Assembly (NCBI RefSeq): GCF_013408295.1
Contig: NZ_JACBYQ010000002.1
Span: forward strand, 62,001 to 126,000
Reading direction: 5' to 3'
Length of the DNA stretch: 64,000 nt
Source: Psychromicrobium silvestre
GTDB lineage: Bacteria; Actinomycetota; Actinomycetes; Actinomycetales; Micrococcaceae
The translations under genes were made by a program, and so were the position numbers. The notes beneath the pieces are model-generated. The model was not told where the DNA came from, did no database searches, and saw only the letters and a program-made list of their open reading frames with translations. Positions 3,124 through 19,124 of the stretch are shown piece by piece (within the stretch, counting starts at the first letter, position 1; each line of letters starts with the position of its first letter).

Positions 3124-3232
3124 ACCTTCCGTTCTATCCCGGCTCCAGTACGGTGACAATCACTCGAAAGCATTGTTTGTAGCTGATCAAGCGGAGGGGC
3201 GGTGGCTCATACATTCCTTCAAGATGTAATCA

Positions 3233-3254
3233 CTGTTACAGTTCTAATTGTGAC
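3233..3254. promoter_or_regulatory. inverted repeat over the ChrB-like gene promoter
   Basis: The half sites TGTTACA and TGTGACA are arranged as an imperfect inverted repeat around the predicted -10 (TACAGT) and start codon. An overlapping TGTAA/TTACA pair lies just upstream at about 3225-3240. The placement over the start suggests autoregulation, but the binding protein is unknown. Confidence 0.35.
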
Positions 3255-3867
3255 AGATGATATTTCCTGGGTTCTGATCCTGCCCCAAGTACCTTCCGAC
3301 CCATCCCGACACCGGGTGGCCGTGTGGCGCCAACTTCGTAAAACGGGAGCCGTGCCGGTCTCCCCCGGAGTGTGGGTGCTGCCCGCCGCGCCTGCTTTCC
3401 AGGCGGATCTAGAGCGAGCTGGCGAGCTGTGCCGTAAGGGCGGCGGGGTTTTCGCCGTCATTGATGCTTCACCAAGAGACGCGCCCTCGGCCGCAGTGAT
3501 CCGGGACGCATTCGCTTCGGTGCGCGTGGATGAGTGGGCCGAATTCGTGGCTGATTGCGGCAAATTTGAGGCAGAAATTGCCCGGGAGATCCAGAAGCGG
3601 AAATTTACCTTTGCCGAGCTGGAAGAGGAGGAGCAAAGCCTGGACCGGCTGCGGCGTTGGTACCGGGATCTAAAAAAGCGTGATGTCCTGGAACTACCGG
3701 AGGCAAAGACCGCCGACACCCGGTTGCGTGCCTGTGCTGCCGCACTGGACGGCTACGCGGAACAGGTCTATCAGGCCATCCATGACGCGCCCGGAGATGG
3801 TGGCTCCGGCCCGTCCGGCACAGCCTTGCGGGATTCGCCGCAGGGCCACACCGGCCTGGGCGAATGA
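3250..3867 (+). CDS. ChrB N-terminal-domain-like protein
   Basis: About 205 residues. The opening (SWVLILPQVPSDPSRHRVAVWRQL ... GAVPVSPGVWVLP) resembles the N-terminal domain of ChrB, the chromate-resistance sensor/regulator, and the middle has the charged helical stretch common in that domain. I take GTG 3250 as the start: a -10-like TACAGT sits 7 nt upstream (3237-3242), which fits a leaderless transcript. A 221-residue reading from 3202 is also open. The stop overlaps the next gene by ATGA, so the two are translationally coupled. No chrA is visible, so chromate as the signal is only an inference. Confidence 0.72.
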   Translation: MTDDISWVLILPQVPSDPSRHRVAVWRQLRKTGAVPVSPGVWVLPAAPAFQADLERAGELCRKGGGVFAVIDASPRDAPSAAVIRDAFASVRVDEWAEFVADCGKFEAEIAREIQKRKFTFAELEEEEQSLDRLRRWYRDLKKRDVLELPEAKTADTRLRACAAALDGYAEQVYQAIHDAPGDGGSGPSGTALRDSPQGHTGLGE

Positions 3868-5072
3868 ATATCCCGCATCGCCGCGGCAGCATCCCTAAGG
3901 CGGTTTCGAGTCCTTCCGCCCGGACCTTAGCCCCGCTCTACGCCGCAGGATTCACCACGTCTTTCGGAGCTCACAGCATTGCCGCGGGACTCGGCGCGGA
4001 AAGCGGAGGCATCGGGCTCGGGCTACTCACCTTCGGAGTACTACTTGCCCTGTATGACGTTGCCGAGGTGATTCTAAAACCCGTCTTCGGCTCCCTCAGC
4101 GACAGGATAGGCGCCAAGCCAGTCATCGTGGTGGGCCTGCTTGGCTTTGCCCTCGCCTCGCTATTAGGCACAACATCCGCCACCCCCCTGATGCTGGGCT
4201 TAGCCCGACTAGGGCAAGGTGCGGCCGCCTCGGCATTCTCCCCCGCCTCCTCGGCAGCGGTTGCCCGGTTAGCCGGACCGGCTGCAGCAGGCAGCTACTT
4301 CGGCAAATACGGTTCTTGGAAAGGGCTGGGCTATGTGCTGGGTCCGCTGCTAGGAGCAGGACTCATCTGGGTCGGCGGCTTTCCTGCCCTATTTCTGTCG
4401 ATGGCTATCGTCTCAGCCGTAGCGGCCATATGGCTCTGGCTTGCGATGCCCTCACTGCCGGTCCTTCCGCGCCCGAGATACACAGTGGCTGAGGTGGTCC
4501 GCCAAAGTACCCGGCGCGCTTTTCTGGTGCCCACGCTGGCACTGGCCGGGGCCACCGGGGCTTTAGGCGTCGCCGTCGGCTTCCTGCCATTACTGGGCAG
4601 CAGCCTACACGTGGGTTTGTTTGCCAGCATGGCTGTGGTGTCTATCCTCGCGGTGTCTTCCACGCTGACCCAGCCGCTGGTTGGTCGACTGTTGGACCAG
4701 CAGCGGATCAGCTCCCCCGCCGGGATGAGCCTGGGGCTGGCTATGATCGCCGCCGGGGTCATACTGCTCGCCATTCTTCCGGTGCCAGCAACGCTCTACC
4801 TCAGCGCAACGATCATCGGCGCTGGCATCGGAATCACAACGCCACTTGGCTTCGCCCACCTCGCTAGCACAACCCCAGCAGAACGGATGGGCCGAACCAT
4901 GGGCGCCGCAGAAATCGGCAGGGAGGTCGGTGACGCCGGCGGGCCACTACTCGTCGGAGCCATCGCCACGGCCGCGAGTATCGCTGCAGGCTTAGGGGCG
5001 CTAGGTGTCCTAGTGGCCGTAACATCCCTACTGTGTACGGTCCTTCTACGTCCGGCGAAACCTCAGCATTGA
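3864..5072 (+). CDS. MFS transporter
   Basis: 402-residue hydrophobic protein with about 12 predicted membrane segments. The cytoplasmic loop between TM2 and TM3 has the major-facilitator signature (GSLSDRIGAKPVIVVG). A second MFS-like half starts after about residue 200 and has GRLLDQQ in the equivalent loop. It is probably a drug or metabolite exporter, and the substrate cannot be read from sequence. It overlaps the ChrB-like gene by 4 nt, which suggests an inducible sensor-plus-efflux pair. It is followed by an 11 bp hairpin at 5101. Confidence 0.88.
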   Translation: MNIPHRRGSIPKAVSSPSARTLAPLYAAGFTTSFGAHSIAAGLGAESGGIGLGLLTFGVLLALYDVAEVILKPVFGSLSDRIGAKPVIVVGLLGFALASLLGTTSATPLMLGLARLGQGAAASAFSPASSAAVARLAGPAAAGSYFGKYGSWKGLGYVLGPLLGAGLIWVGGFPALFLSMAIVSAVAAIWLWLAMPSLPVLPRPRYTVAEVVRQSTRRAFLVPTLALAGATGALGVAVGFLPLLGSSLHVGLFASMAVVSILAVSSTLTQPLVGRLLDQQRISSPAGMSLGLAMIAAGVILLAILPVPATLYLSATIIGAGIGITTPLGFAHLASTTPAERMGRTMGAAEIGREVGDAGGPLLVGAIATAASIAAGLGALGVLVAVTSLLCTVLLRPAKPQH

Positions 5073-5131: not shown

Positions 5132-5564
5132 AAAAAGAAATCAGCCAGTCATCATAGATTATCGACAAATACTTTGCATCAACTAATTAGGATAATTTAA
5201 CGCTTATTGAACACCGCTTAGCATTTAAGGACCACTCCACCGCCAACGCTAATCATCGTATTGAATACACCCCCATTCTCTCCCCCTGAGAATCACCCCA
5301 AAAAACTCAAAAAGGTCAGAATTCCCGGGAGAAACATACCAACATAACAACGTAACTTTCTTGCCAGAGTTATTGGTTCAGAATACGCTTATGAAGTCCT
5401 CCAGCGAGTACCGTTCGGTGGATGCACCGCAGGAACACCCACCGCGCTAACCGGGTCAGATATCAGCCTGGGAAGCAACCTGGGCCGGCGATGCCTGCCT
5501 CGGCCGGTGTTCTGGCTATCGTGGCAGACCACGCGATTTGATGAGCAGCCAAAGGCGGTGCCCA
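5132..5564. other. AT-rich intergenic region upstream of the GAF-LytTR gene
   Basis: About 430 bp with no convincing gene. The first 250 bp are distinctly AT-rich compared with the flanks and probably hold the regulator's promoter. A 19-codon open frame (5391-5450, MKSSSEYRSVDAPQEHPPR) exists but has no ribosome site and is not called as a gene. Confidence 0.5.
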
Positions 5565-6968
5565 ATGCCAGGTGACCAGCGACTCCAGTCGATATCCCGC
5601 GACTTGAATAGGACCGAGGTCTACGGCGCGTGGGAACGCTTTGTACAGGGTGACGACGACGTCTACGGGGTACGACCCGAAGTGGCGATCTCCTGGCAGC
5701 GGTCACGGGATCAGTATCACATCGACCCGTATCTGTCCGAAGTACCTAATGCGGCGGTCTCGCAGGTTGTGCACTCCCTCGATCAAGATGTCGTCTTCAC
5801 GGAACTGGGTTTCTGTGCTGCCGCGATGGCACATGAGGTGGCTAGCGCCGGAGGCGTAGTGACCGTCGCCGACGCTGGCGGCAGGATCCTGACAGCGTGG
5901 GGCGATAAGAACACCCGCTCCATCGCCACCGCAGGCGGCCTCGCACCATGGTTTTGCTGGTCCGAGGGCGCGGTGGGAACGAATAGCATGGGCACCGCAC
6001 TCGAAACTCGGCGCGCGGTGATGATCAGACAGTCGGAACACTGGTGCCAAGCCTTCCACGAATGGTCTTGCGGGGGCGTCGCAGTGCGGGACGTGGTCAC
6101 TAGGGAGCCGCTTGCCGTCTTGAATATTTCGTGTTGGCGCAGTGATCTACCGTCCTCCGCACGGAAATGGCTGGAAAGCGCCGCTATCCATACCCAGAAC
6201 AGCTTGCGCAGGCGGGCCCGTGACAGCGGCAGCGAACTGCTCGCCGCCTATGTACACGCCCGGGGGCGATCAAAGGAGCCGCTCGTCGCCGTCGATACGG
6301 CAGGTGCGGTAGTGATTGCCGATGACAGGGCCAGCGTCATTCTCGGCGTACCCGCAAACACCCCCGCAGTTGATCCTGCGGTGCGCTGGACTCCGCAGCT
6401 TCCGCCGCTGATCCACGCTGCTCGATATGCCACCAAACGAGCGCACTCAGACCCGAGTTGGACCGGCTCGACGCAAATCTTCACCCTTCTCTCTAATGAA
6501 CCATCGTCGATCGGCATTCGACCTGTGTTCCTTCACAACACTCTGATTGGGCACCTGATCTCTTTCGGAGCCTTCGTCGGTGAGCAGTTCCCGCAGGCAG
6601 AAACAGGCGGGGTCTTGCTAGGACCATCCCGTCGAGTAGTTGCCCTCCGCGAGGAGAACCGGATGGTACTGCTGAAGACTTCAGAGGTCACGATGGCAGA
6701 AGCGGACGGCAGCGAGGTGTGGCTGCTCACCGATGATGGCAGAATGCGGGCTGCCTTATCCGGCCTAGACAAACTCGAAAACGATCTGTCGGACACCGGT
6801 AGCTTCCTACGAGTACATCGTCAGTATCTGGTCAACCTGAGCCGTATCCGAGAGGTCGAGCGTCGAGAAAAAGGCGAACTGGTTCTGGTCATGGACAATC
6901 CCGAGCACACCATGGTTCCGGTATCTCGGCGGAACATTCGCGCGGTACGCCGGGCTCTGAGCATCTAA
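5565..6968 (+). CDS. GAF-domain, LytTR-type DNA-binding regulator
   Basis: 467 residues. Residues about 60-230 match the AcoR/DhaR-type GAF sensor: a GTNSMGTAL motif, then SEHW and a CW-containing strand. The C-terminal ~105 residues are a LytTR DNA-binding domain (LRVHRQYLVNLSRI signature). There is no sigma-54 AAA+ domain, so this is a sensor domain joined directly to LytTR output. ATG 5565 was chosen because AAAGGCGG lies 6 nt upstream; earlier in-frame starts at 5538/5541 lack this. It converges on the PQQ operon end, separated by a shared hairpin. Relatives sit near alcohol dehydrogenase genes, so control of the PQQ dehydrogenase genes is plausible but unproven. Confidence 0.85.
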   Translation: MPGDQRLQSISRDLNRTEVYGAWERFVQGDDDVYGVRPEVAISWQRSRDQYHIDPYLSEVPNAAVSQVVHSLDQDVVFTELGFCAAAMAHEVASAGGVVTVADAGGRILTAWGDKNTRSIATAGGLAPWFCWSEGAVGTNSMGTALETRRAVMIRQSEHWCQAFHEWSCGGVAVRDVVTREPLAVLNISCWRSDLPSSARKWLESAAIHTQNSLRRRARDSGSELLAAYVHARGRSKEPLVAVDTAGAVVIADDRASVILGVPANTPAVDPAVRWTPQLPPLIHAARYATKRAHSDPSWTGSTQIFTLLSNEPSSIGIRPVFLHNTLIGHLISFGAFVGEQFPQAETGGVLLGPSRRVVALREENRMVLLKTSEVTMAEADGSEVWLLTDDGRMRAALSGLDKLENDLSDTGSFLRVHRQYLVNLSRIREVERREKGELVLVMDNPEHTMVPVSRRNIRAVRRALSI

Positions 6969-7110: not shown

Positions 7111-7311
7111 TCAGTGTTGATGCACTTCGCAGGAACAGTACATGTTCCGACAGGTGTAGCAAGCAGGCATCGTCTTGCAGCGCGGACAGACCTCACAGTT
7201 AACCGGCTCCGTGTGCCGCTCAGCATCCACCGAGGTGTAGGACTCCCCACAGTGATAGCACGGAGGTCGCTCCCTACTGTCCTTCTGGTCACCCACCTGG
7301 GTATTCGGCAT
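7111..7311 (-). CDS. 66-residue Cys-rich (zinc-ribbon-like) protein ending the pqq operon
   Basis: Begins MPNTQVGDQKDSRERPPC and holds nine cysteines, mostly in pairs: CYHC, CEVCPRC, CYTC and CSC, ending EVHQH. The pattern suggests one or two metal (Zn or Fe) sites. The ATG at 7311 shares one base with the stop codon of the upstream membrane-protein gene (TGATG), so it should be translationally coupled and belong to the pqq operon. I do not recognise the family. Its reality is supported by the coupling, the dense CxxC spacing and the terminator that follows. Possible roles are a metal chaperone or a partner of the membrane protein; neither is shown. Confidence 0.7.
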   Translation of the reverse strand: MPNTQVGDQKDSRERPPCYHCGESYTSVDAERHTEPVNCEVCPRCKTMPACYTCRNMYCSCEVHQH

Positions 7312-7853
7312 CAGGAGTCGCCCACGCCCGCGACCACCAGGCCGGCCATCAGCACAAACGCAATCCCGGTCAAAAGATCCGTACGGAGGCGAGGGATGAA
7401 GTTGGCGATAGTGCGGCCGATCTGGTGTCCAGCAACCGACATCACGAAAGTGGTGAATGCGAACAATATGGGTGCAATCCACGGCGAGTACCCGGCAAGG
7501 CCCAGGGTCGCACCACCGAGCACGTTATCGATGCTCAAGGGCACCGGCAACCAGCGCCTAGCCGTCTTCATATTAAGATCGGCGTGCTCCGGTGAACGGA
7601 TCGCCTTAAAGATGACCCACAGGCCGTACCCGGCAAGACCTGCCGCCCCAATCATCTCCGCGGTATCCGAGATCATGGTGCTCACGTACTCACCGATAAG
7701 CATTCCGACGAGTGGCGCCACACCGTCCCAAAGCGCGAAAATCGCGGACGTATTGATGGACTGACGTAAGGTCGGCTTAAGCCCGCCGAGCGCTATCGAG
7801 GTCCGAAAGTTGTCAAGACTCAGGCCGAAGCCGAGCAGGATTAGGGCGATCAT
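7311..7853 (-). CDS. MntP/TerC-like six-TM membrane protein of the pqq operon
   Basis: 180 residues, about six membrane segments arranged as two related halves. Each half carries an acidic SLDN/SIDN motif (FGLSLDNFRTSIALG near the N-terminus, VPLSIDNVLGGATLG after the midpoint). This is the layout of MntP-type manganese exporters; the exact SLDN form also recalls TerC and CadD proteins. The start codon overlaps the end of pqqE (ATGA), so it is made from the pqq transcript. Moving a divalent or trivalent metal ion is the likely role. Given the lanthanide-type dehydrogenase in this operon, the substrate deserves testing. Confidence 0.75.
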   Translation of the reverse strand: MIALILLGFGLSLDNFRTSIALGGLKPTLRQSINTSAIFALWDGVAPLVGMLIGEYVSTMISDTAEMIGAAGLAGYGLWVIFKAIRSPEHADLNMKTARRWLPVPLSIDNVLGGATLGLAGYSPWIAPILFAFTTFVMSVAGHQIGRTIANFIPRLRTDLLTGIAFVLMAGLVVAGVGDS

Positions 7854-9037
7854 TCTTTTCCTTTCAATACGGTGGGGGACAGTGAAACAGACGTTCTCGC
7901 CGTCCTTCTTTGCGTCGTCGCAGCCGTTCTTTGTCTTCTCGGGCGGCCCATCTGTGGGCGGGGAATAAGCGAACCGCCCTGCGGCCGCGTTGGGTCGTTT
8001 GCTGCCGCAACCGCTGCCTCGACCAGCCCGTGGTCTGGGGAGAGGTGGCAGACCGGGTCTGTTCGAGAGGCGTCCCCGGTGAGTGCAAGAGCCTGGCAGC
8101 GGCAGCCGCCGAAGTCGATTTCCCGGCGTTCACAACTCCGGCAGGGATCTGGCATCCATGCCTCGCCGCGGAACTGTTGAAAAAGCGGAGCCTCTTCCCA
8201 GATCCAGGCCAGCGAGTGTTCGCGCACGGTGGCTGGCGGTAATTCAAGTGAGCGAGCCACCTCATGGGCGACAGGGCAGGGCAGCGCCTCGCCGTTAGGC
8301 ACCACGGTGAAATGCCTGCTGGCCCAGCCATCCATACAGGGCTTGGGGTACTGGCTGTAGTAGTCGGGGATCACATAGATGATTTCCATCCGGCCATCAA
8401 GTCGCTCTCGAGCTTCTCGCACCAGCACTTCCGCGCGCTCCAACTGCTCCCTGCTCGGAAGTAGCTCAGCACGGTTTGGCTCTGCCCAGCCGTAGTACTG
8501 GGTATTTGCCAGTTCGATGCGGTCGGCTTTCATCGCCTCGGCCATATCAAGGATGCCGCCAATCCGGTCGATGTTCTGCCGGTGCAGTACCACATTGAGC
8601 GTGAGTGGCCAGCCCAGTTGTTTGACCAGACTTGCGACCGCCTGTTTCCGCTCAAAGGATTTGGTTCCTGCGATCTGATCGGACAGGGCAGGATCATCGG
8701 CCTGGATACTGAGCTGCACATGATCGAGGCCGGCCTCGCGGAGTTGCTCGGCCCGACGGGCAGAAAGACCGAGCCCGCTGGTGATCAGATTGGTGTAGAG
8801 GCCCAGCTTATTGGCGTACTGCACTAAGTCGACGATGTCGTGGCGCTGCAGCGGCTCGCCGCCCGAGAGGTGCAACTGGAGGACCCCTAGGTCCGCAGCC
8901 TCAGCAAATACACGTTGCCACTCTTCCGTGCTGAGCTCGTCGCGATAGTCGTCGAGTTGCAGCGGATTTGAGCAGTAAGCGCAATGCAGCGGGCATGAGT
9001 AGGTGAGCTCGGCTAGCAGTGCGTAAGGCTTATCCAT
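7850..9037 (-). CDS. pqqE: PqqA peptide cyclase (radical SAM)
   Basis: 395 residues. The radical-SAM cluster motif C15-x3-C19-x2-C22 is at the N-terminus (SCPLHCAYC), and a SPASM-type cysteine set (CRSCERREIDFGGCRC ... DPVC) is at the C-terminus for auxiliary iron-sulfur clusters. The family forms the first Glu-Tyr carbon-carbon bond in PqqA. It overlaps pqqD by 8 nt and the membrane-protein gene by 4 nt. The last ~50 residues (RRQRTAATTQRRTARTS) are basic and not part of the usual PqqE core. It is the only pqqE in the window and must serve both pqqA copies. Confidence 0.97.
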   Translation of the reverse strand: MDKPYALLAELTYSCPLHCAYCSNPLQLDDYRDELSTEEWQRVFAEAADLGVLQLHLSGGEPLQRHDIVDLVQYANKLGLYTNLITSGLGLSARRAEQLREAGLDHVQLSIQADDPALSDQIAGTKSFERKQAVASLVKQLGWPLTLNVVLHRQNIDRIGGILDMAEAMKADRIELANTQYYGWAEPNRAELLPSREQLERAEVLVREARERLDGRMEIIYVIPDYYSQYPKPCMDGWASRHFTVVPNGEALPCPVAHEVARSLELPPATVREHSLAWIWEEAPLFQQFRGEAWMPDPCRSCERREIDFGGCRCQALALTGDASRTDPVCHLSPDHGLVEAAVAAANDPTRPQGGSLIPRPQMGRPRRQRTAATTQRRTARTSVSLSPTVLKGKE

Positions 9038-9308
9038 GGTCTACCTCCATGCCATGCTTGGTGACGAGAGCCGCCACGAAGCGTTGGACGTCGCCATCGG
9101 CGACTTGGTCGTATTGGCCGCGCAGTTCGGCCCTGATCTCTGCGATTGTCCGCTGGCCGTCGCACAACTCCACGATTGCGGCGCCAGTGGCATTGATGGC
9201 CCAAATTGTCTCGGGTGAGAGCAGCGCGTGTTCCCCGCGTGCGGCGTTAAAGACCAGACGCACGTGCGGCGCCAACCGTGGCCGGGCCGTCTCGTCAACG
9301 CGGTCCAT
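9030..9308 (-). CDS. pqqD: PQQ biosynthesis peptide chaperone PqqD
   Basis: 92 residues with the PqqD winged-helix pattern: RPRLAPHVRLVF, then LLSPETIWAINATGAAIVELCDGQRTIAEI. The protein binds PqqA and delivers it to PqqE. ATG 9308 (MDRVDETARP) gives the standard length and overlaps the end of pqqC by 14 nt; a longer open frame to 9422 is the extension of this frame inside pqqC. It is separate from pqqC, whereas some species fuse the two. Confidence 0.95.
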   Translation of the reverse strand: MDRVDETARPRLAPHVRLVFNAARGEHALLSPETIWAINATGAAIVELCDGQRTIAEIRAELRGQYDQVADGDVQRFVAALVTKHGMEVDHG

Positions 9309-9987
9309 AGGCCTGGTCAATCGAATCGAGCATGCTCCACAGCACGTCACACTTGAAGGACAAGGCTGCCACTGCGGCTGCTTGGGTTTCCGGGGTGATG
9401 CAGTGCTTCCGTACCACCTCAAGACCGTGCTCCGAGTCGCGAGGTGCCTGGGTGAGACGAGACCGGAAATAGGCGAGGCCCGCTGGGTCGATCCAGGTGT
9501 AGTAGCGCTCGAATGCCGCGAGCCGCTGGGCCATCAGGTTAGGTGCGAACAACTCGGTCAGCGAGGAAGCCACCGCTTCCACCCACGGCTTGGTTCGGGT
9601 GAAGGTGACATAAGCGTCGACGGCGAACCGCACTCCCGGGAGCAGGTGACGGGAGTCCTCGACCTCCTCGCGGGACAGGCCAACGGCTTCGCCTAGACGC
9701 AGCCACGATTCAATCCCGCCAGTTCCCTCGGTGGTGCCGTCGTGGTCAATAATGCGTTGGACCCAGCGACGCCGTACCTCGCGGTCCGGACAACTGCTAA
9801 GGACCGCTCCGTCCTTCCGGGGAATGTTCTCCTGGTAGTAGAAGCGATTGGCGACCCACCCGCGGATCTCCTCCGGACTGGACTGCCCCTCGTTCATCCG
9901 CTGATGAAAGGGATGCTCACTGTGGTACTGCTTGGCATGCGTGCGGAGCTTTTCCTCGAGTTCATCGGGGGTGAGTACTGCCGTCAT
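9295..9987 (-). CDS. pqqC: pyrroloquinoline-quinone synthase PqqC
   Basis: 230-residue all-helical oxidase of the TenA-like fold, close to the usual 230-250. It catalyses the last ring closure and eight-electron oxidation to PQQ. Recognisable stretches are YHSEHPFHQRMNEGQ near the N-terminus, NRFYYQENIPRKDGA and the conserved WVQRIIDHDG. It lies 9 nt downstream of pqqB and overlaps pqqD. Confidence 0.96.
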   Translation of the reverse strand: MTAVLTPDELEEKLRTHAKQYHSEHPFHQRMNEGQSSPEEIRGWVANRFYYQENIPRKDGAVLSSCPDREVRRRWVQRIIDHDGTTEGTGGIESWLRLGEAVGLSREEVEDSRHLLPGVRFAVDAYVTFTRTKPWVEAVASSLTELFAPNLMAQRLAAFERYYTWIDPAGLAYFRSRLTQAPRDSEHGLEVVRKHCITPETQAAAVAALSFKCDVLWSMLDSIDQAYGPR

Positions 9988-9996
9988 CTTTGCTCC

Positions 9997-10890
9997 TTAG
10001 ATCTCTAGTTCCAAACCGTCCACACCGACCTCCATGCCCTGCCGGTCCAGGTGTTGTCGTTCCGGCGAGTCGTCGAGCAAGATCGGATTGGTGTTATTGA
10101 TGTGGATGTAAATTTTGCGATCAATGGGTAGTGGCGAAAGCAACTCAAGGCTGCCGCCTGGCCCATCGATAGGTACATGTCCCATCTCCCGCGATGTCTT
10201 GTTAGCCAAACCAAGGCTGGGCATCTCGTCATCGCGCCAGCAGGTGCCGTCGATGAGCAAGACGGAGCAGTCCGCCAGTTGCTCGAGGATCTCGGGAGAG
10301 AGCTGCTGCACGCAAGGGAGATAGACCAAGCTACGACGGCTGGTGCTATCGGTGATGCGGTAGCCCACTACCCGACCGCTCGATGCGGCACCGGGGAAGC
10401 GCATCCGTTTCTCCGTGGGGACGTCAAACGCGCTATAAAACAACTTCTCACCTAGCGCCACCTCGGTACCGTGGACGACCGGGCGCCAGGTGACCGGGCA
10501 GTACGCTTCAAGCGTCCGTAGTATCCCGGTCCCGGTGGTGAGGGTTTCGTGTACCGACTCCGTCGCGTGCACCTCAAGTCCTAGGCCCTCCCGCATCAAG
10601 AGTAGGCCGATCGTGTGGTCGAGCTCGGCGTCGGTAAGCAGCACTGACTGAAACCGAATCACCGTACCGTCGTCTGGGTGCAAGGCTGGGAAGGATTCAA
10701 TTTGCGACTGGATGTCTGGTGAGGCGTTGAGGAGGAACCACTGTTCCCTATCAGCGCTCACTGCGATGGACGATTGAGAGCGTGCGACGCTGGGCCGCGA
10801 ACCGCTCCGGACTGCTCGGCATTGTGGGCAGGCGCAGTTCCACTGTGGTGAGCTTCCGCCGGCTGCTGATCCTAGGATGCGGATCCACAT
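9997..10890 (-). CDS. pqqB: PqqB, MBL-fold oxidase
   Basis: 297 residues of the metallo-beta-lactamase fold. It starts [21 protein letters not shown] with the usual CxxC (CPQC), and LTDAELDHTIGL is the metal-binding region. PqqB hydroxylates the cross-linked intermediate before PqqC acts. ATG 10890 was chosen because it gives the family start; an open frame upstream runs through the pqqA-pqqB gap. The first 43 bp of this gene lie inside the inverted repeat, whose outer edge (10847) cuts the gene. This is the intact copy. Confidence 0.95.
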   Translation of the reverse strand: MWIRILGSAAGGSSPQWNCACPQCRAVRSGSRPSVARSQSSIAVSADREQWFLLNASPDIQSQIESFPALHPDDGTVIRFQSVLLTDAELDHTIGLLLMREGLGLEVHATESVHETLTTGTGILRTLEAYCPVTWRPVVHGTEVALGEKLFYSAFDVPTEKRMRFPGAASSGRVVGYRITDSTSRRSLVYLPCVQQLSPEILEQLADCSVLLIDGTCWRDDEMPSLGLANKTSREMGHVPIDGPGGSLELLSPLPIDRKIYIHINNTNPILLDDSPERQHLDRQGMEVGVDGLELEI

Positions 10891-10979
10891 TGCTGTTGAC
10901 GTCCTTTCGGGGTGGTGCTGGTGGGGTGCCTGGCCGTTGTTGGGTTGTGGCACCCCACCAGTTGGTACTGCTTTTGGTG

Positions 10980-11081
10980 TTACTTTTCGAGGATGGCCAC
11001 GTAGGCGGTGACCTCGGCAGAGACACGGATTTCTTTGAGCGTGGGAGCTTCCCAGTGCTGCGGTGTGTGTTTGGTGTTCAT
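10980..11081 (-). CDS. pqqA: PQQ precursor peptide PqqA (copy 1)
   Basis: 33 residues, starting [18 protein letters not shown]. It has the diagnostic E-x3-Y motif (E23 and Y27 in AEVTAYVA), whose Glu and Tyr side chains become PQQ. It sits between the dehydrogenase gene and pqqB, as in many pqq operons. A ribosome site (AAGGAA) lies close upstream. Identical to copy 2 on the plus strand. Confidence 0.95.
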   Translation of the reverse strand: MNTKHTPQHWEAPTLKEIRVSAEVTAYVAILEK

Positions 11082-11124
11082 GTTTCCTTGGTTCCTTTCA
11101 GTTCTCGTGTGTGGTGGTGTGGGG

Positions 11125-12810
11125 TTAGCTGGGGAGAGCGAAAGCGATCAGCGCGCTGCCGTGGCCCGCGCCGAGCATTCCGGGAATGATGCCTTCGAGC
11201 CATCCGCCCCAACCCACGGGAACGACGACGTATTGCTTACCGTCAACGCTGTAGGTCGAGCAGCTACCGTGGTGTCCGCTACCACACTGGAATTCCCATA
11301 GCTTCTCGCCCGTGCGGGAATCTAGCGCGACGAACTCACCCGTGGGAGTGCCCGCGAAGACTAGATCGCCTGCGGTAGCGAGCACGGACGCTGCCATGGG
11401 GTAATCGATACGCCAACGCCACTTCTCTTCACCGTGGGTATCGAACGCGCTGACCGATCCAGCCATGTCATCGATGTCCACCTGAACAGCAGCCCCCCAA
11501 TACGGCATGCTCTCTTTGAACTCCCGACGACGACGGGTCGCGGTAGCACCCACGTCGGCTACAGGCACGTAGAACATTTCGGTCTTGGGACTATACGCTG
11601 CGTGCGTCCATTCCTTCGCACCAGCCGGGCCGGGGTAGAAGTGAACGGGCTCGCCCTCTTTGTCCGGGTACTTCCGGGGAGTCACTTTCCCGTCTCGAGT
11701 GATGACGCCCCAATCGATCCGGTCCACGAAGGGAGTGACGTGTTGAAGTTCACCGTTAGTACGGTCCAACACGAAGAAGTAGCCGTTCTTATCGAAGTGA
11801 CCCAGCAACTTCTTGCCGTCACGTTCGAACAGTGTCATCTCCATCGTGGAGTCGTAGTCCCACAAATCATGCGGAGTGAACTGATAGTGCCACTTGATCT
11901 CACCAGAATCGACATCTAGCGCGACAACACTGTCGGTATAGAGGTTGTCTCCCGGACGAACCTCACCATCGAAATCAGGGGCCGGGTTACCGGTGCCCGC
12001 GTAATACAAGTTGGTCTCCGGGTCATACGTCCCCGTGACCCAGTGGTTCGCACCACCACGAGCCCAAGCCTCACCATCAGCAGGCCAGGTCTCTGATCCC
12101 GGCTCGCCCGGCTTGGGCACGGTGTAAGTACGCCAGCGCTGCTCACCGGTCTCCAAGTCCCAAGCATCGATGTGGCCACGCACACCGAACTCGCCACCAG
12201 CACTACCGGTGATGAGGAAGTCCTTGATGACCGTCGGCGCGATCGAGGCGCTTTCCCCAGCACGCACATCACCGATGGTCTTCTGCCAGACCTTCTTACC
12301 GTTCGTCGCATCCAACGCCAGTAACTGGGCGTTCGGAGTGACGAAGTAGACCTTCCCGTTAGCCACCGCGCACCCACGATTAACGTTGCCGCAGCACAGC
12401 GAAACATCGAAAGGCACCGCGTGCTTATAACGCCACAGTTCCTGACCCGATACCGCGTCAAGAGCCCAGAACCAACCATCCCAACCCGTGACGTACATGA
12501 CGCCATCAACGATCACAGGACAGGTCTCAAACGCGTACGTCGAAGCGCCCGCGATCTGGCCCGACTGCCCCGCCTGGAAAATCCAGGCCGGACTGATCTT
12601 GCTCACGTTCTCAGTATTAATCTGATCCAGCAGACTGTAACGCTGCCCGTCATAAGCACCGTAGTACGTCAACCAGTTCTGCGACTCCGAACGCGCGTTC
12701 AAAAGACGGTCGTAATTGATGTTGTCCGTCACCGCAGGCGCGGTACCAGTCACAGCACTCAACGCGCTATGGTCAATTGCCTCTCCGGCATCTACATATT
12801 CGATTGTCAT
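11125..12810 (-). CDS. PQQ-dependent alcohol/methanol-type dehydrogenase, lanthanide-type (copy 1)
   Basis: 561-residue eight-bladed quinoprotein. Visible landmarks are the adjacent cysteines C139-C140 over PQQ, E207 in GGEFGVRG (metal ligand), N275 in GTGNP and catalytic D318 in WDYD. D320, two residues after the catalytic Asp, is the extra acid that marks lanthanide-dependent enzymes (XoxF, PedH); calcium enzymes usually have Ala or Ser there. There is no signal peptide, and an in-frame stop 7 codons upstream of ATG rules out an extension. Family members are normally periplasmic or exported, so location is an open question. Neighbouring pqqA and pqqB show that the cofactor is made by the same operon. 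Confidence 0.93.
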   Translation of the reverse strand: MTIEYVDAGEAIDHSALSAVTGTAPAVTDNINYDRLLNARSESQNWLTYYGAYDGQRYSLLDQINTENVSKISPAWIFQAGQSGQIAGASTYAFETCPVIVDGVMYVTGWDGWFWALDAVSGQELWRYKHAVPFDVSLCCGNVNRGCAVANGKVYFVTPNAQLLALDATNGKKVWQKTIGDVRAGESASIAPTVIKDFLITGSAGGEFGVRGHIDAWDLETGEQRWRTYTVPKPGEPGSETWPADGEAWARGGANHWVTGTYDPETNLYYAGTGNPAPDFDGEVRPGDNLYTDSVVALDVDSGEIKWHYQFTPHDLWDYDSTMEMTLFERDGKKLLGHFDKNGYFFVLDRTNGELQHVTPFVDRIDWGVITRDGKVTPRKYPDKEGEPVHFYPGPAGAKEWTHAAYSPKTEMFYVPVADVGATATRRRREFKESMPYWGAAVQVDIDDMAGSVSAFDTHGEEKWRWRIDYPMAASVLATAGDLVFAGTPTGEFVALDSRTGEKLWEFQCGSGHHGSCSTYSVDGKQYVVVPVGWGGWLEGIIPGMLGAGHGSALIAFALPS

Positions 12811-12828
12811 CGGTTCAATCCCTTTCTT

Positions 12829-13302
12829 CTATGGGCGAGGCTGGTCGGGGCGATCCAAACGGGCTTCCGGGGGTACTTCGCCCTTCACCACGATCGCGGC
12901 CGTCAAACCACGGCCCTCATCGTTGCCTCCCGGCGAGCTGTACCAGTAGTAACCCGGACCATCCAGAGTCAACTTCGCCTGACCCCTCGAATGGTTCAGC
13001 AACCAGAGAAACTTCTGATCCCCATTACTCGGCAACAAACAAGAATGCGTGTTCTTGTCATCATTGATAACCGTCAACTCAAGATCACCACCATGTGGCA
13101 AAACCAAGATCGCCGGATCCCACGAAACCGAATCTTCCCTGATCCGGATCGTCGCCTCCATCGTGCCGTCAGCACGCTCGGTCGCCGCCTCAATGTTGCC
13201 GGTCGCCAAAACCCGCCCCATCGACGCCTTGTTCTGTCCATCCAAGCCAAACTCAGCCAACAGCTCAGATCGTTCGTCATTAATCACTTCAGTAGCCGTC
13301 AC
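12829..13302 (-). CDS. PQQ-associated cupredoxin-like protein, MSMEG_3727-like (copy 1)
   Basis: 157 residues. The C-terminal half looks like a beta-sandwich of the cupredoxin kind (ILVLPHGGDLELTVIND, then NTHSCLLPS, then GPGYYWYSSPGG). Only the first His and a nearby Cys are present; the usual Cys-His-Met loop at the end is replaced by PGGNDEGRG, so a normal blue-copper site is unlikely. It resembles from memory the small protein encoded beside PQQ dehydrogenases in mycobacteria (MSMEG_3727 family). GTG 13302 is preceded by GAGGAG. There is no signal peptide. It lies 18 nt before the dehydrogenase gene, so it is a likely partner or electron acceptor. Confidence 0.75.
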   Translation of the reverse strand: MTATEVINDERSELLAEFGLDGQNKASMGRVLATGNIEAATERADGTMEATIRIREDSVSWDPAILVLPHGGDLELTVINDDKNTHSCLLPSNGDQKFLWLLNHSRGQAKLTLDGPGYYWYSSPGGNDEGRGLTAAIVVKGEVPPEARLDRPDQPRP

Positions 13303-13371
13303 TAGACACCTCCTCAATCGTGAAATCAAATACGCGTCACACGCACTCGAACCCCTCGCGTAACAGGCATA

Positions 13372-13399
13372 TTCATAGTCCACTCACTCATCCGAGCAA
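13372..13399 (-). promoter_or_regulatory. candidate promoter of the leftward PQQ operon
   Basis: TTGCTC, a 16 nt spacer and TATGAA stand about 70 bp upstream of the GTG start. This is the mirror image of 14241-14268 in the right arm. The -10 is acceptable and the -35 is weak. Confidence 0.4.
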
Positions 13400-13531
13400 G
13401 TTCCGTAACCGTATGTTCACTTCAAACCAACAACCAGACACAACCGCCGAACCGACCTAGCCCACCGCTCACCCCCCACAACACACCGCTCACAACGAGA
13501 CCCACATCACACCCCACCACCCAACAAACCC

Positions 13532-14108: not shown

Positions 14109-14139
14109 GGGTTTGTTGGGTGGTGGGGTGTGATGTGGG
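14109..14139 (+). other. G-quadruplex-type motif at the inner edge of the right arm
   Basis: Four G-tracts of 3-4 (14109, 14118, 14125, 14137) are separated by loops of 6, 4 and 8 nt. More G-runs follow (GGGGGG near 14165). The mirror copy on the minus strand of the left arm spans 13501-13531. The next ~100 bp are nearly all G and T on this strand. Confidence 0.5.
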
Positions 14140-14240
14140 TCTCGTTGTGAGCGGTGTGTTGTGGGGGGTGAGCGGTGGGCTAGGTCGGTTCGGCGGTTGT
14201 GTCTGGTTGTTGGTTTGAAGTGAACATACGGTTACGGAAC

Positions 14241-14268
14241 TTGCTCGGATGAGTGAGTGGACTATGAA
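14241..14268 (+). promoter_or_regulatory. candidate promoter of the rightward PQQ module
   Basis: TTGCTC, 16 nt, TATGAA, about 70 bp before the GTG start. Because this lies inside the repeat, both dehydrogenase copies should respond to the same signals. Confidence 0.4.
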
Positions 14269-14337
14269 TATGCCTGTTACGCGAGGGGTTCGAGTGCGTG
14301 TGACGCGTATTTGATTTCACGATTGAGGAGGTGTCTA

Positions 14338-14811
14338 GTGACGGCTACTGAAGTGATTAATGACGAACGATCTGAGCTGTTGGCTGAGTTTGGCTTGGAT
14401 GGACAGAACAAGGCGTCGATGGGGCGGGTTTTGGCGACCGGCAACATTGAGGCGGCGACCGAGCGTGCTGACGGCACGATGGAGGCGACGATCCGGATCA
14501 GGGAAGATTCGGTTTCGTGGGATCCGGCGATCTTGGTTTTGCCACATGGTGGTGATCTTGAGTTGACGGTTATCAATGATGACAAGAACACGCATTCTTG
14601 TTTGTTGCCGAGTAATGGGGATCAGAAGTTTCTCTGGTTGCTGAACCATTCGAGGGGTCAGGCGAAGTTGACTCTGGATGGTCCGGGTTACTACTGGTAC
14701 AGCTCGCCGGGAGGCAACGATGAGGGCCGTGGTTTGACGGCCGCGATCGTGGTGAAGGGCGAAGTACCCCCGGAAGCCCGTTTGGATCGCCCCGACCAGC
14801 CTCGCCCATAG
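14338..14811 (+). CDS. PQQ-associated cupredoxin-like protein, MSMEG_3727-like (copy 2)
   Basis: Identical in sequence to copy 1 at 12829-13302 (157 residues, GTG start behind GAGGAG, His and Cys in NTHSC but no downstream Cys-His-Met copper loop). It opens the rightward module and lies 18 nt before dehydrogenase copy 2. The role as dehydrogenase partner is inferred from constant pairing, here doubled. Confidence 0.75.
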   Translation: MTATEVINDERSELLAEFGLDGQNKASMGRVLATGNIEAATERADGTMEATIRIREDSVSWDPAILVLPHGGDLELTVINDDKNTHSCLLPSNGDQKFLWLLNHSRGQAKLTLDGPGYYWYSSPGGNDEGRGLTAAIVVKGEVPPEARLDRPDQPRP

Positions 14812-14829
14812 AAGAAAGGGATTGAACCG

Positions 14830-16515
14830 ATGACAATCGAATATGTAGATGCCGGAGAGGCAATTGACCATAGCGCGTTGAGTGCTGTGACTGGTACCGC
14901 GCCTGCGGTGACGGACAACATCAATTACGACCGTCTTTTGAACGCGCGTTCGGAGTCGCAGAACTGGTTGACGTACTACGGTGCTTATGACGGGCAGCGT
15001 TACAGTCTGCTGGATCAGATTAATACTGAGAACGTGAGCAAGATCAGTCCGGCCTGGATTTTCCAGGCGGGGCAGTCGGGCCAGATCGCGGGCGCTTCGA
15101 CGTACGCGTTTGAGACCTGTCCTGTGATCGTTGATGGCGTCATGTACGTCACGGGTTGGGATGGTTGGTTCTGGGCTCTTGACGCGGTATCGGGTCAGGA
15201 ACTGTGGCGTTATAAGCACGCGGTGCCTTTCGATGTTTCGCTGTGCTGCGGCAACGTTAATCGTGGGTGCGCGGTGGCTAACGGGAAGGTCTACTTCGTC
15301 ACTCCGAACGCCCAGTTACTGGCGTTGGATGCGACGAACGGTAAGAAGGTCTGGCAGAAGACCATCGGTGATGTGCGTGCTGGGGAAAGCGCCTCGATCG
15401 CGCCGACGGTCATCAAGGACTTCCTCATCACCGGTAGTGCTGGTGGCGAGTTCGGTGTGCGTGGCCACATCGATGCTTGGGACTTGGAGACCGGTGAGCA
15501 GCGCTGGCGTACTTACACCGTGCCCAAGCCGGGCGAGCCGGGATCAGAGACCTGGCCTGCTGATGGTGAGGCTTGGGCTCGTGGTGGTGCGAACCACTGG
15601 GTCACGGGGACGTATGACCCGGAGACCAACTTGTATTACGCGGGCACCGGTAACCCGGCCCCTGATTTCGATGGTGAGGTTCGTCCGGGAGACAACCTCT
15701 ATACCGACAGTGTTGTCGCGCTAGATGTCGATTCTGGTGAGATCAAGTGGCACTATCAGTTCACTCCGCATGATTTGTGGGACTACGACTCCACGATGGA
15801 GATGACACTGTTCGAACGTGACGGCAAGAAGTTGCTGGGTCACTTCGATAAGAACGGCTACTTCTTCGTGTTGGACCGTACTAACGGTGAACTTCAACAC
15901 GTCACTCCCTTCGTGGACCGGATCGATTGGGGCGTCATCACTCGAGACGGGAAAGTGACTCCCCGGAAGTACCCGGACAAAGAGGGCGAGCCCGTTCACT
16001 TCTACCCCGGCCCGGCTGGTGCGAAGGAATGGACGCACGCAGCGTATAGTCCCAAGACCGAAATGTTCTACGTGCCTGTAGCCGACGTGGGTGCTACCGC
16101 GACCCGTCGTCGTCGGGAGTTCAAAGAGAGCATGCCGTATTGGGGGGCTGCTGTTCAGGTGGACATCGATGACATGGCTGGATCGGTCAGCGCGTTCGAT
16201 ACCCACGGTGAAGAGAAGTGGCGTTGGCGTATCGATTACCCCATGGCAGCGTCCGTGCTCGCTACCGCAGGCGATCTAGTCTTCGCGGGCACTCCCACGG
16301 GTGAGTTCGTCGCGCTAGATTCCCGCACGGGCGAGAAGCTATGGGAATTCCAGTGTGGTAGCGGACACCACGGTAGCTGCTCGACCTACAGCGTTGACGG
16401 TAAGCAATACGTCGTCGTTCCCGTGGGTTGGGGCGGATGGCTCGAAGGCATCATTCCCGGAATGCTCGGCGCGGGCCACGGCAGCGCGCTGATCGCTTTC
16501 GCTCTCCCCAGCTAA
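14830..16515 (+). CDS. PQQ-dependent alcohol/methanol-type dehydrogenase, lanthanide-type (copy 2)
   Basis: Identical to copy 1 at 11125-12810: 561 residues, C139-C140, E207, N275, D318 and D320, no signal peptide. In this copy the gene is followed by a second pqqA and a truncated pqqB, then katG, rather than by the maturation genes. PQQ for this enzyme must come from pqqB-E on the other arm. The substrate is not readable from sequence; primary alcohols are the family norm. Confidence 0.93.
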   Translation: MTIEYVDAGEAIDHSALSAVTGTAPAVTDNINYDRLLNARSESQNWLTYYGAYDGQRYSLLDQINTENVSKISPAWIFQAGQSGQIAGASTYAFETCPVIVDGVMYVTGWDGWFWALDAVSGQELWRYKHAVPFDVSLCCGNVNRGCAVANGKVYFVTPNAQLLALDATNGKKVWQKTIGDVRAGESASIAPTVIKDFLITGSAGGEFGVRGHIDAWDLETGEQRWRTYTVPKPGEPGSETWPADGEAWARGGANHWVTGTYDPETNLYYAGTGNPAPDFDGEVRPGDNLYTDSVVALDVDSGEIKWHYQFTPHDLWDYDSTMEMTLFERDGKKLLGHFDKNGYFFVLDRTNGELQHVTPFVDRIDWGVITRDGKVTPRKYPDKEGEPVHFYPGPAGAKEWTHAAYSPKTEMFYVPVADVGATATRRRREFKESMPYWGAAVQVDIDDMAGSVSAFDTHGEEKWRWRIDYPMAASVLATAGDLVFAGTPTGEFVALDSRTGEKLWEFQCGSGHHGSCSTYSVDGKQYVVVPVGWGGWLEGIIPGMLGAGHGSALIAFALPS

Positions 16516-16558
16516 CCCCACACCACCACACACGAGAACTGAAAGGAACCAAGGAAAC

Positions 16559-19124
<2,566 letters not shown>

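Follow-up and report, generated by a model that had tools for sequence, protein, structure and literature searches.

We have analysed a 64-kb window, that is, the whole stretch of 64,000 nucleotides from Psychromicrobium silvestre (contig NZ_JACBYQ010000002.1, positions 62,001 to 126,000), in which the genes of a lanthanide-type pyrroloquinoline quinone (PQQ) alcohol dehydrogenase and the pqq genes are followed by two further genes, encoding an MntP-like transporter and a 66-residue Cys/His-rich mini-protein. As far as genomics can tell, this operon end handles a metal, and the function conserved there would be metal efflux, for which exporters of different families can stand in for one another beside the dehydrogenase. 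An exporter gene of the same or an unrelated family lies near most of the related clusters that we read, in bacteria as well as in haloarchaea; this suggests a need to pump out a metal in cells that produce the enzyme. For the transporter in the window, we regard it as an evenly balanced proposition that it serves for metal efflux in a lanthanide-type PQQ dehydrogenase system with a probably cytoplasmic enzyme, lanthanide ions (Ln3+) being the most likely exported metal. More tentative, and rather below even, is the general claim that MntP-, CaCA- and GDT1-like families have been converted, in bacteria and haloarchaea, into lanthanide exporters protecting cells that have a cytoplasmic lanthanide-dependent PQQ dehydrogenase.

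On the minus strand, the genes follow one another in the order MSMEG_3727-family gene, dehydrogenase, pqqA-like gene, pqqB, pqqC, pqqD (assigned by position), pqqE, transporter and mini-protein. The original prediction had joined the last three by start/stop overlaps, and its coordinates and frames were right: pqqE and the transporter gene have 4 nt (ATGA) in common at their junction, and the transporter TGA and the mini-protein ATG share 1 base.

An exporter gene of varying family beside the dehydrogenase

The transporter had been labelled MntP/TerC-like. The first half of this label is right because the protein matches Pfam Mntp with 65.8 bits against a gathering score of 24.4 (E 4.8e-18), and the second half is wrong because no TerC model matched; at E<=0.1 Pfam returned Mntp and a sub-threshold GDT1 alone, and the TerC assignment was thus ruled out. 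The score for the NCBIfam MntP equivalog NF008546 was 35.7 bits, far under its 214-bit cut-off. With E. coli MntP (25% identity) the protein shares its size, six-helix plan and paired Asp in two repeats, but DA of the E. coli protein is replaced by DN in both repeats and V-E in the second helix by W-D, and the motifs read SLDN, W-D-x3-P and SIDN. DN stood in both repeats of the window protein, of 13 further cluster-linked MntP-like proteins and of 2 encoded elsewhere in genomes of this kind, and W-D in the second helix is likewise a feature of the MntP-like copies; ordinary MntP from E. coli and G079 had DA in both repeats. An AlphaFold2 model of the transporter showed six long helices at modest confidence (predicted local distance difference test, pLDDT, 65); it gave no Foldseek match at E<=0.001, and searches of the PDB with an MntP-like profile and with the GDT1 sequence returned nothing useful.

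Association with the enzyme was examined in 30 actinobacterial genomes or records carrying an MSMEG_3727-family gene (8 Micrococcaceae, 1 plasmid and 21 from another family, f58). A gene of an exporter family (MntP-like, Na/Ca-exchanger-like (CaCA) or GDT1) was present in 30/30, and in 25/30 it lay within about 15 kb of the MSMEG_3727 gene. Within the Micrococcaceae it was MntP-like in the window, in Arthrobacter sp. 18067, where the gene order is that of the window, in G748 and G792, and also in G678 and G796, in which the enzyme gene is off the contig; among those with the enzyme it was CaCA-like in G023, G753 and G714, and GDT1 in G711. The local arrangement varied, in that G023 has a degenerate piece of pqqE between the CaCA and mini-protein genes, and in G714 pqqE is directly followed by the mini-protein gene, the CaCA gene lying on the opposite strand beyond the regulator. 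On the plasmid, from Streptomyces, the MntP-like gene is convergent to pqqE, and no mini-protein gene was found in the stretch read. In f58 the MSMEG_3727 family occurred in 25 of 100 genomes, of which 21 were examined (including G450; G821, G826, G851 and G887 were left out). All 21 carried a variant exporter gene (7 MntP-like only, 12 CaCA only, 2 both), which in 16 of them lay no more than about 15 kb from an MSMEG_3727 gene. Neither the MntP nor the CaCA variant was found in the stretch read of 9/9 actinobacterial pqq loci without the MSMEG_3727 family, and 3 of 59 relatives, the window included, passed the Mntp model. These neighbourhoods support the view that the transporter follows this type of dehydrogenase and not pqq genes generally. 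Judged in the same way, the constant element beside the enzyme is an exporter and not MntP specifically, for which CaCA or GDT1 may substitute.

The original prediction had proposed a test of whether the trio of pqqE, transporter and mini-protein tracks with the D-x-D enzyme. In our samples an exporter (30/30) goes together with the WDYD motif (29/29 enzymes read), but MntP is replaceable by CaCA or GDT1 and the mini-protein is not tied to pqqE. As findings that would refute it, the original prediction had named a wide occurrence of the pair away from pqq and a calcium-type dehydrogenase in most pqq operons that carry the pair; within our samples neither was seen.

The exporter families have replaced one another repeatedly. 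On an enzyme tree of 31 rows (29 actinobacterial and 2 haloarchaeal; for G871 and G906, with genes of both families, the label CaCA was used), the labels MntP, CaCA and GDT1 needed six changes, at least 4 of them forced by well-supported branches, and yet the labels were still more clustered than shuffled ones. In G753, an mntP remnant of 30-34 residues with a stop lies directly before the CaCA gene. When each genome was searched for the other family, 1/12 MntP-type genomes (G678) also had the variant CaCA and 2/17 CaCA-type genomes (G871 and G906) also had an intact MntP-like gene. That an unrelated family steps in and the place is not left empty speaks for a need of the system for this activity.

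The replacement gene passes the CaCA model PF01699 (92.1 against 24.9 bits) and aligns over both repeats with the Na+/Ca2+ exchanger NCX_Mj. However, it does not have GTSxPE in both alpha repeats: where NCX_Mj carries GTSLPE, the first motif is FTG(I/F)EFDD in 26/26 loci (GIEFDD in place of GTSLPE), and the second matches (T/S)xED in 23/26, the pattern being unmatched in L168, L196 and L198. Of 30 CaCA loci of relatives, 11 (from 10 genomes) had (G/A)TSxPE in both repeats, 2 had it in a single repeat and 16 in neither, and the variant motif was found only in that of G023; this motif scan took all 30 loci, whereas a comparison based on open reading frames (ORFs) dropped 13/30 because the ORF scored worse than E 0.01. 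Since NCX_Mj binds Ca2+ by two deprotonated carboxylates (PMC8366772), the alignments suggest that the variant CaCA has extra acidic residues around the ion site. In the GDT1 protein of G711, the first motif has Ala in place of Lys. The motif changes fit a cation of higher charge such as Ln3+, although they are not proof of it.

The association is also seen on haloarchaeal plasmids. With the G023 CaCA as query, 72,556 plasmid records gave 11 matches at E<=1e-20, all haloarchaeal. A closer search for the variant CaCA gave 7 records, and in 7/7 a DxD dehydrogenase was located within 20 kb (3-18 kb); conversely, the variant CaCA was present in 7/8 haloarchaeal records with such an enzyme, Natrononativus being the exception. 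All nine haloarchaeal enzymes read have WDYD, and none has a signal-like N-terminus. In L196 (Natrinema thermotolerans) the CaCA gene was found in two pieces and unannotated, and it may therefore be broken. The variant CaCA was absent from proteobacterial plasmids (proteobacterial chromosomes were not searched), and homologues of the PQQ enzyme occurred in 323 plasmid records, mostly proteobacterial by their listed names. By title, none of the publications found in a search on haloarchaeal lanthanide PQQ enzymes was on the subject.

Probable enzyme location and the proposed exported metal

The dehydrogenase had been predicted to be lanthanide-type, and this agrees with our alignments. The window enzyme contains WDYDS, GGEFG, GTGNPAP and a CC pair, and its best PDB match was PedH (6zcv), with which it aligned at E, N, D and D, presumably the metal ligands. 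Having DxD plus the E and N ligands, it is by these marks a lanthanide-type PQQ alcohol dehydrogenase, the extra Asp being described as the sign of lanthanide use (PMC5487730, PMC11996626). Of the actinobacterial enzymes, one per genome or record, 29/29 have WDYD, GGE(F/Y)G and the CC pair and 28/29 have GNP; no dehydrogenase was found in the stretch read of G883.

The window enzyme begins with MTIEYVDAGEA, and an N-terminal extension is blocked by an in-frame stop just upstream, with six non-start codons between. The 29 actinobacterial enzymes all start with variants of this motif, and a signal-peptide-like N-terminus was seen in none; their N-terminal hydropathy reached at most 1.70, compared with 1.97-2.52 in three proteobacterial controls with signal peptides. 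Hydropathy and inspection thus gave no signal peptide of the kind that goes with secreted or periplasmic lanthanide PQQ alcohol dehydrogenases, and because of this a cytoplasmic location of the dehydrogenase is likely.

We propose that the signal-less dehydrogenase would work in the cytoplasm, which would require Ln3+ to enter there. Cytoplasmic Ln3+ might be harmful in excess, or Ca2+ or Mn2+ might compete for the enzyme site, and a Ca/Mn-type exporter that had gained oxygen ligands in its metal motif would expel the surplus, most likely Ln3+. The exporter role would be filled by the MntP-like protein in the window and by CaCA-like or GDT1 proteins in relatives, and the 66-residue protein from this operon would act as a zinc-binding adaptor or as a regulator.

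Several points weigh against this proposal. Signal peptides were called by hydropathy and inspection with three controls and no trained predictor, one N-terminus (the maximum of 1.70) lies near the weakest signal-peptide control (1.97), and in some loci the enzyme start was placed by us at the conserved MTxEYVDAG motif. The comparison with ordinary MntP comprised two sequences only, those from E. coli and G079, and GDT1 is a single case (G711) that shares its second motif, GDLS, with ordinary relatives. The exporter and the MSMEG_3727 gene lie on different contigs in G864, G846, G871, G899 and G834 (the MSMEG_3727 contig being shorter than 12 kb in G864 and G846), and intact genes of both exporter families occur in 3/29 genomes tested. 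The controls consisted of the nine pqq loci and 59 relatives, with f58 genomes lacking the enzyme left out, and four haloarchaeal records with a distant CaCA (31-35% identity) had no such enzyme at E<=1e-80. The role proposed for the mini-protein rests on composition. Finally, NCLX and NCX_Mj differ at nine of twelve ion-coordinating residues, and NCLX still carries Ca2+ (PMC8366772).

This last point bears on an alternative that we consider possible but doubtful, namely that the transporter exports Ca2+ or Mn2+ and not Ln3+, sparing the cytosolic apo-enzyme the wrong ion, and so is a Ca/Mn exporter with a drifted motif. All three families are Ca2+/Mn2+ exporters by family (PMC4608589, PMC8366772), and a changed motif is no proof that the substrate is a new one (PMC8366772); however, the altered motif is present in every cluster-linked MntP-like copy, and the altered first motif in every CaCA copy read, and neither was seen in the ordinary family members used for comparison. 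For Ca2+, moreover, a housekeeping exporter without such changes might suffice.

It is unlikely that the transporter supplies the enzyme with metal, whether by inward transport or for an enzyme located outside the membrane. The linkage to the enzyme would suit such a role, antiporters are reversible in principle, and uptake genes do occur nearby, since G711 has genes for an ABC-type binding protein and a permease after GDT1; but a periplasmic enzyme should carry a signal peptide, and none was seen. Quite unlikely is a general stress cargo, in which Mn/Ca efflux and a Cys-rich protein would act against oxidative or formaldehyde stress from the pathway. The peroxidase (PF00141) that adjoins the cluster both here and in G711, together with the small Cys-rich protein, would agree with this, but Mn export would worsen peroxide stress, and neither the shared motif changes nor the haloarchaeal loci, whose listed neighbours are different, would be explained. 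Export of surplus Ln3+, or of a competing ion, from the cytoplasm is the reading that we favour.

The Cys/His-rich mini-protein

The mini-protein contains C18, C21, H33 and C39, followed by C42, C45, C51, C54, C59, C61 and H64, and these 9 Cys and 2 His are invariant in all 14 homologues (nine from Micrococcaceae and five from f58). C18-x2-C21-x11-H33-x5-C39 resembles a C2HC zinc finger, and the second half holds six Cys and one His. Over a core of 50 codons, the nine Micrococcaceae copies differ mostly by synonymous changes (median pN/pS 0.24, maximum 0.40 in 36 pairs). Because the Cys/His set is kept and the substitutions are mostly synonymous, the ORF is very probably a real gene. Pfam gave no match to the window protein at E<=0.1, and curated zinc-finger cut-offs were not reached, the best zinc-finger match being zf-C2HC_2 (E 0.045) in 2/14 members; the HVO_0758 profile scored 14.3 bits against a cut-off of 70. 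Profile matches of the family were weak and mixed, many of them to zinc-binding proteins, and the AlphaFold2 model was unusable (pLDDT 52).

Among 395 Micrococcaceae genomes, the mini-protein was found in 8, the MSMEG_3727 family over cut-off in 7 and both in 6 (Fisher p 4e-11). In the two genomes with the mini-protein and no MSMEG_3727 match (G678 and G796), the contig stops at pqqB, and G711 has the enzyme and lacks the mini-protein. In f58, where only the fetched loci were inspected, the gene follows the dehydrogenase in the loci of 5 of the 21 genomes read (45-51% identical), with none of pqqB, pqqC and pqqE in the 12-20 kb read; these copies rule out the mini-protein as a strict partner of pqqE. 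On the enzyme tree, 12 carriers could be given a place, all within a single clade (100/99) that comprises 13 rows, the thirteenth being G711. A contig scan with two strict peptide patterns found at least two copies, a floor because the f58 mini-proteins do not fit the patterns. Ten weak matches (E 9.8e-5 to 5.2e-4) all contained an internal stop and were set aside as chance hits, and a search of plasmids returned nothing useful.

The idea that the pair handles a metal for the enzyme is supported for the transporter, with an exporter gene in 30/30, but not as a lanthanide role of the mini-protein, whose Cys/His set is like that of a zinc finger. Lanthanides are poorly bound by thiolates, so the mini-protein is unlikely to carry them, and a lanthanide-binding function was rejected on the ligand set of 9 Cys and 2 His. 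That it is a lanthanide chaperone or sensor is very improbable in spite of the shared operon and strong conservation, given these ligands, the C2HC-like first half and its presence in the loci read of 5/21 f58 genomes against an exporter in all 21. It is probably a lineage-specific, zinc-binding accessory.

Neighbouring genes and relation to known systems

The features of the window are listed in Table 1.

Table 1. Operon genes and adjoining features, with positions in the window
Feature	Position	Strand	Basis and remarks
MSMEG_3727-family PQQ-associated protein	12829..13383	-	TIGR04339 270.5 bits, PF23509 5.9e-80; start perhaps internal
Lanthanide-type PQQ alcohol dehydrogenase (WDYDS) without visible signal peptide	11125..12810	-	TIGR03075 629.6 bits
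pqqA-like precursor peptide, 33 aa, E-x3-Y	10980..11081	-	Translation; motif and place; similar peptides in relatives
pqqB	9997..10953	-	TIGR02108 367.5 bits, match begins at residue 24; start perhaps internal
pqqC	9295..9987	-	TIGR02111 331.4 bits
Probable pqqD	9041..9298	-	Position between pqqC and pqqE only; TTG-start ORF, boundary uncertain
pqqE	7850..9037	-	TIGR02109 PqqE equivalog 514.7 bits (cut-off 381.35)
Predicted cation exporter of 180 aa, MntP-like (LysE superfamily)	7311..7853	-	Pfam Mntp (PF02659) 4.8e-18
66-aa Cys/His-rich protein, probably zinc-binding	7111..7311	-	ORF; 14 homologues share the Cys/His set
LytTR-domain regulator	5538..6968	+	PF04397 2.9e-18
Second, identical MSMEG_3727-family gene and dehydrogenase	14257..16515	+	Inside 2685-bp perfect inverted repeat

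Homologues of the LytTR regulator adjoin many of the related clusters, as found by tblastn in the related loci. Positions 10847-13531 and 14109-16793 form a perfect inverted repeat of 2685 bp, which duplicates the MSMEG_3727-family gene and the dehydrogenase along with 36 codons from the start of pqqB; this could reflect gene dosage or assembly. G023 likewise carries two copies of the first two genes, in direct order. Its homologue of the MSMEG_3727-family protein has a faint cupredoxin match (E 0.086) but lacks a signal peptide and, as judged by eye, an obvious copper loop, and a part for this family as electron partner is possible. The peroxidase (PF00141; KatG-like by length) adjoins the dehydrogenase cluster at 16614-19124 in the window and at L082:7743-9950 in G711, and peroxidase-like ORFs were judged by eye in L037, L057, L060, L061 and L083. 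A ChrB_N protein and an MFS transporter are encoded at 3202-5072 of the window; ChrB_N recurs in G714, apparently with MFS (L057:13419-15250, by eye), and in G711 between pqqE and GDT1 (L082:15555-16133). The ABC-type genes after GDT1 in G711 (L082:16925-20001), for an SBP_bac_6-type binding protein and a permease, are a candidate metal uptake system. In G792 (L061:9724-11001), HUMPS-family and SIS-domain genes near the dehydrogenase, which we take to be hxlA/hxlB-like, are a hint of a ribulose-monophosphate methanol pathway. A scan of viral contigs returned nothing useful.

To our knowledge, no lanthanide exporters and no cytoplasmic lanthanide enzymes were known earlier, and these, if the proposal is true, would be the first of both known to us. 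In a literature search for lanthanide efflux, export, exporter and like phrases, only "lanthanide homeostasis" matched among the matches listed; for MntP together with lanthanide, no publication concerned the exporter by its title. The clusters offer a direct test, with a single exporter gene, two alternative families and relatives in Arthrobacter. If the substrate is Ln3+, such exporters could also help rare-earth recovery.

With the lanthanide alcohol dehydrogenases PedH/ExaF and XoxF, the window enzyme has DxD, the CC pair, GGEFG and GNP in common. It differs from them in having no visible signal peptide and in its constant partner, an MSMEG_3727-family protein; no cytochrome c gene, in contrast to PedH/ExaF and XoxF, was recognised among the genes scanned beside the dehydrogenase. 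The lanthanide systems of lut and Ped type resemble the present clusters in that metal-transport genes serve a lanthanide enzyme. Term counts over the main texts of PMC11845868 and PMC11996626 gave no instance of "efflux", and the lut/Ped-type systems are described in the former as uptake systems (PMC11845868), unlike the exporter proposed here.
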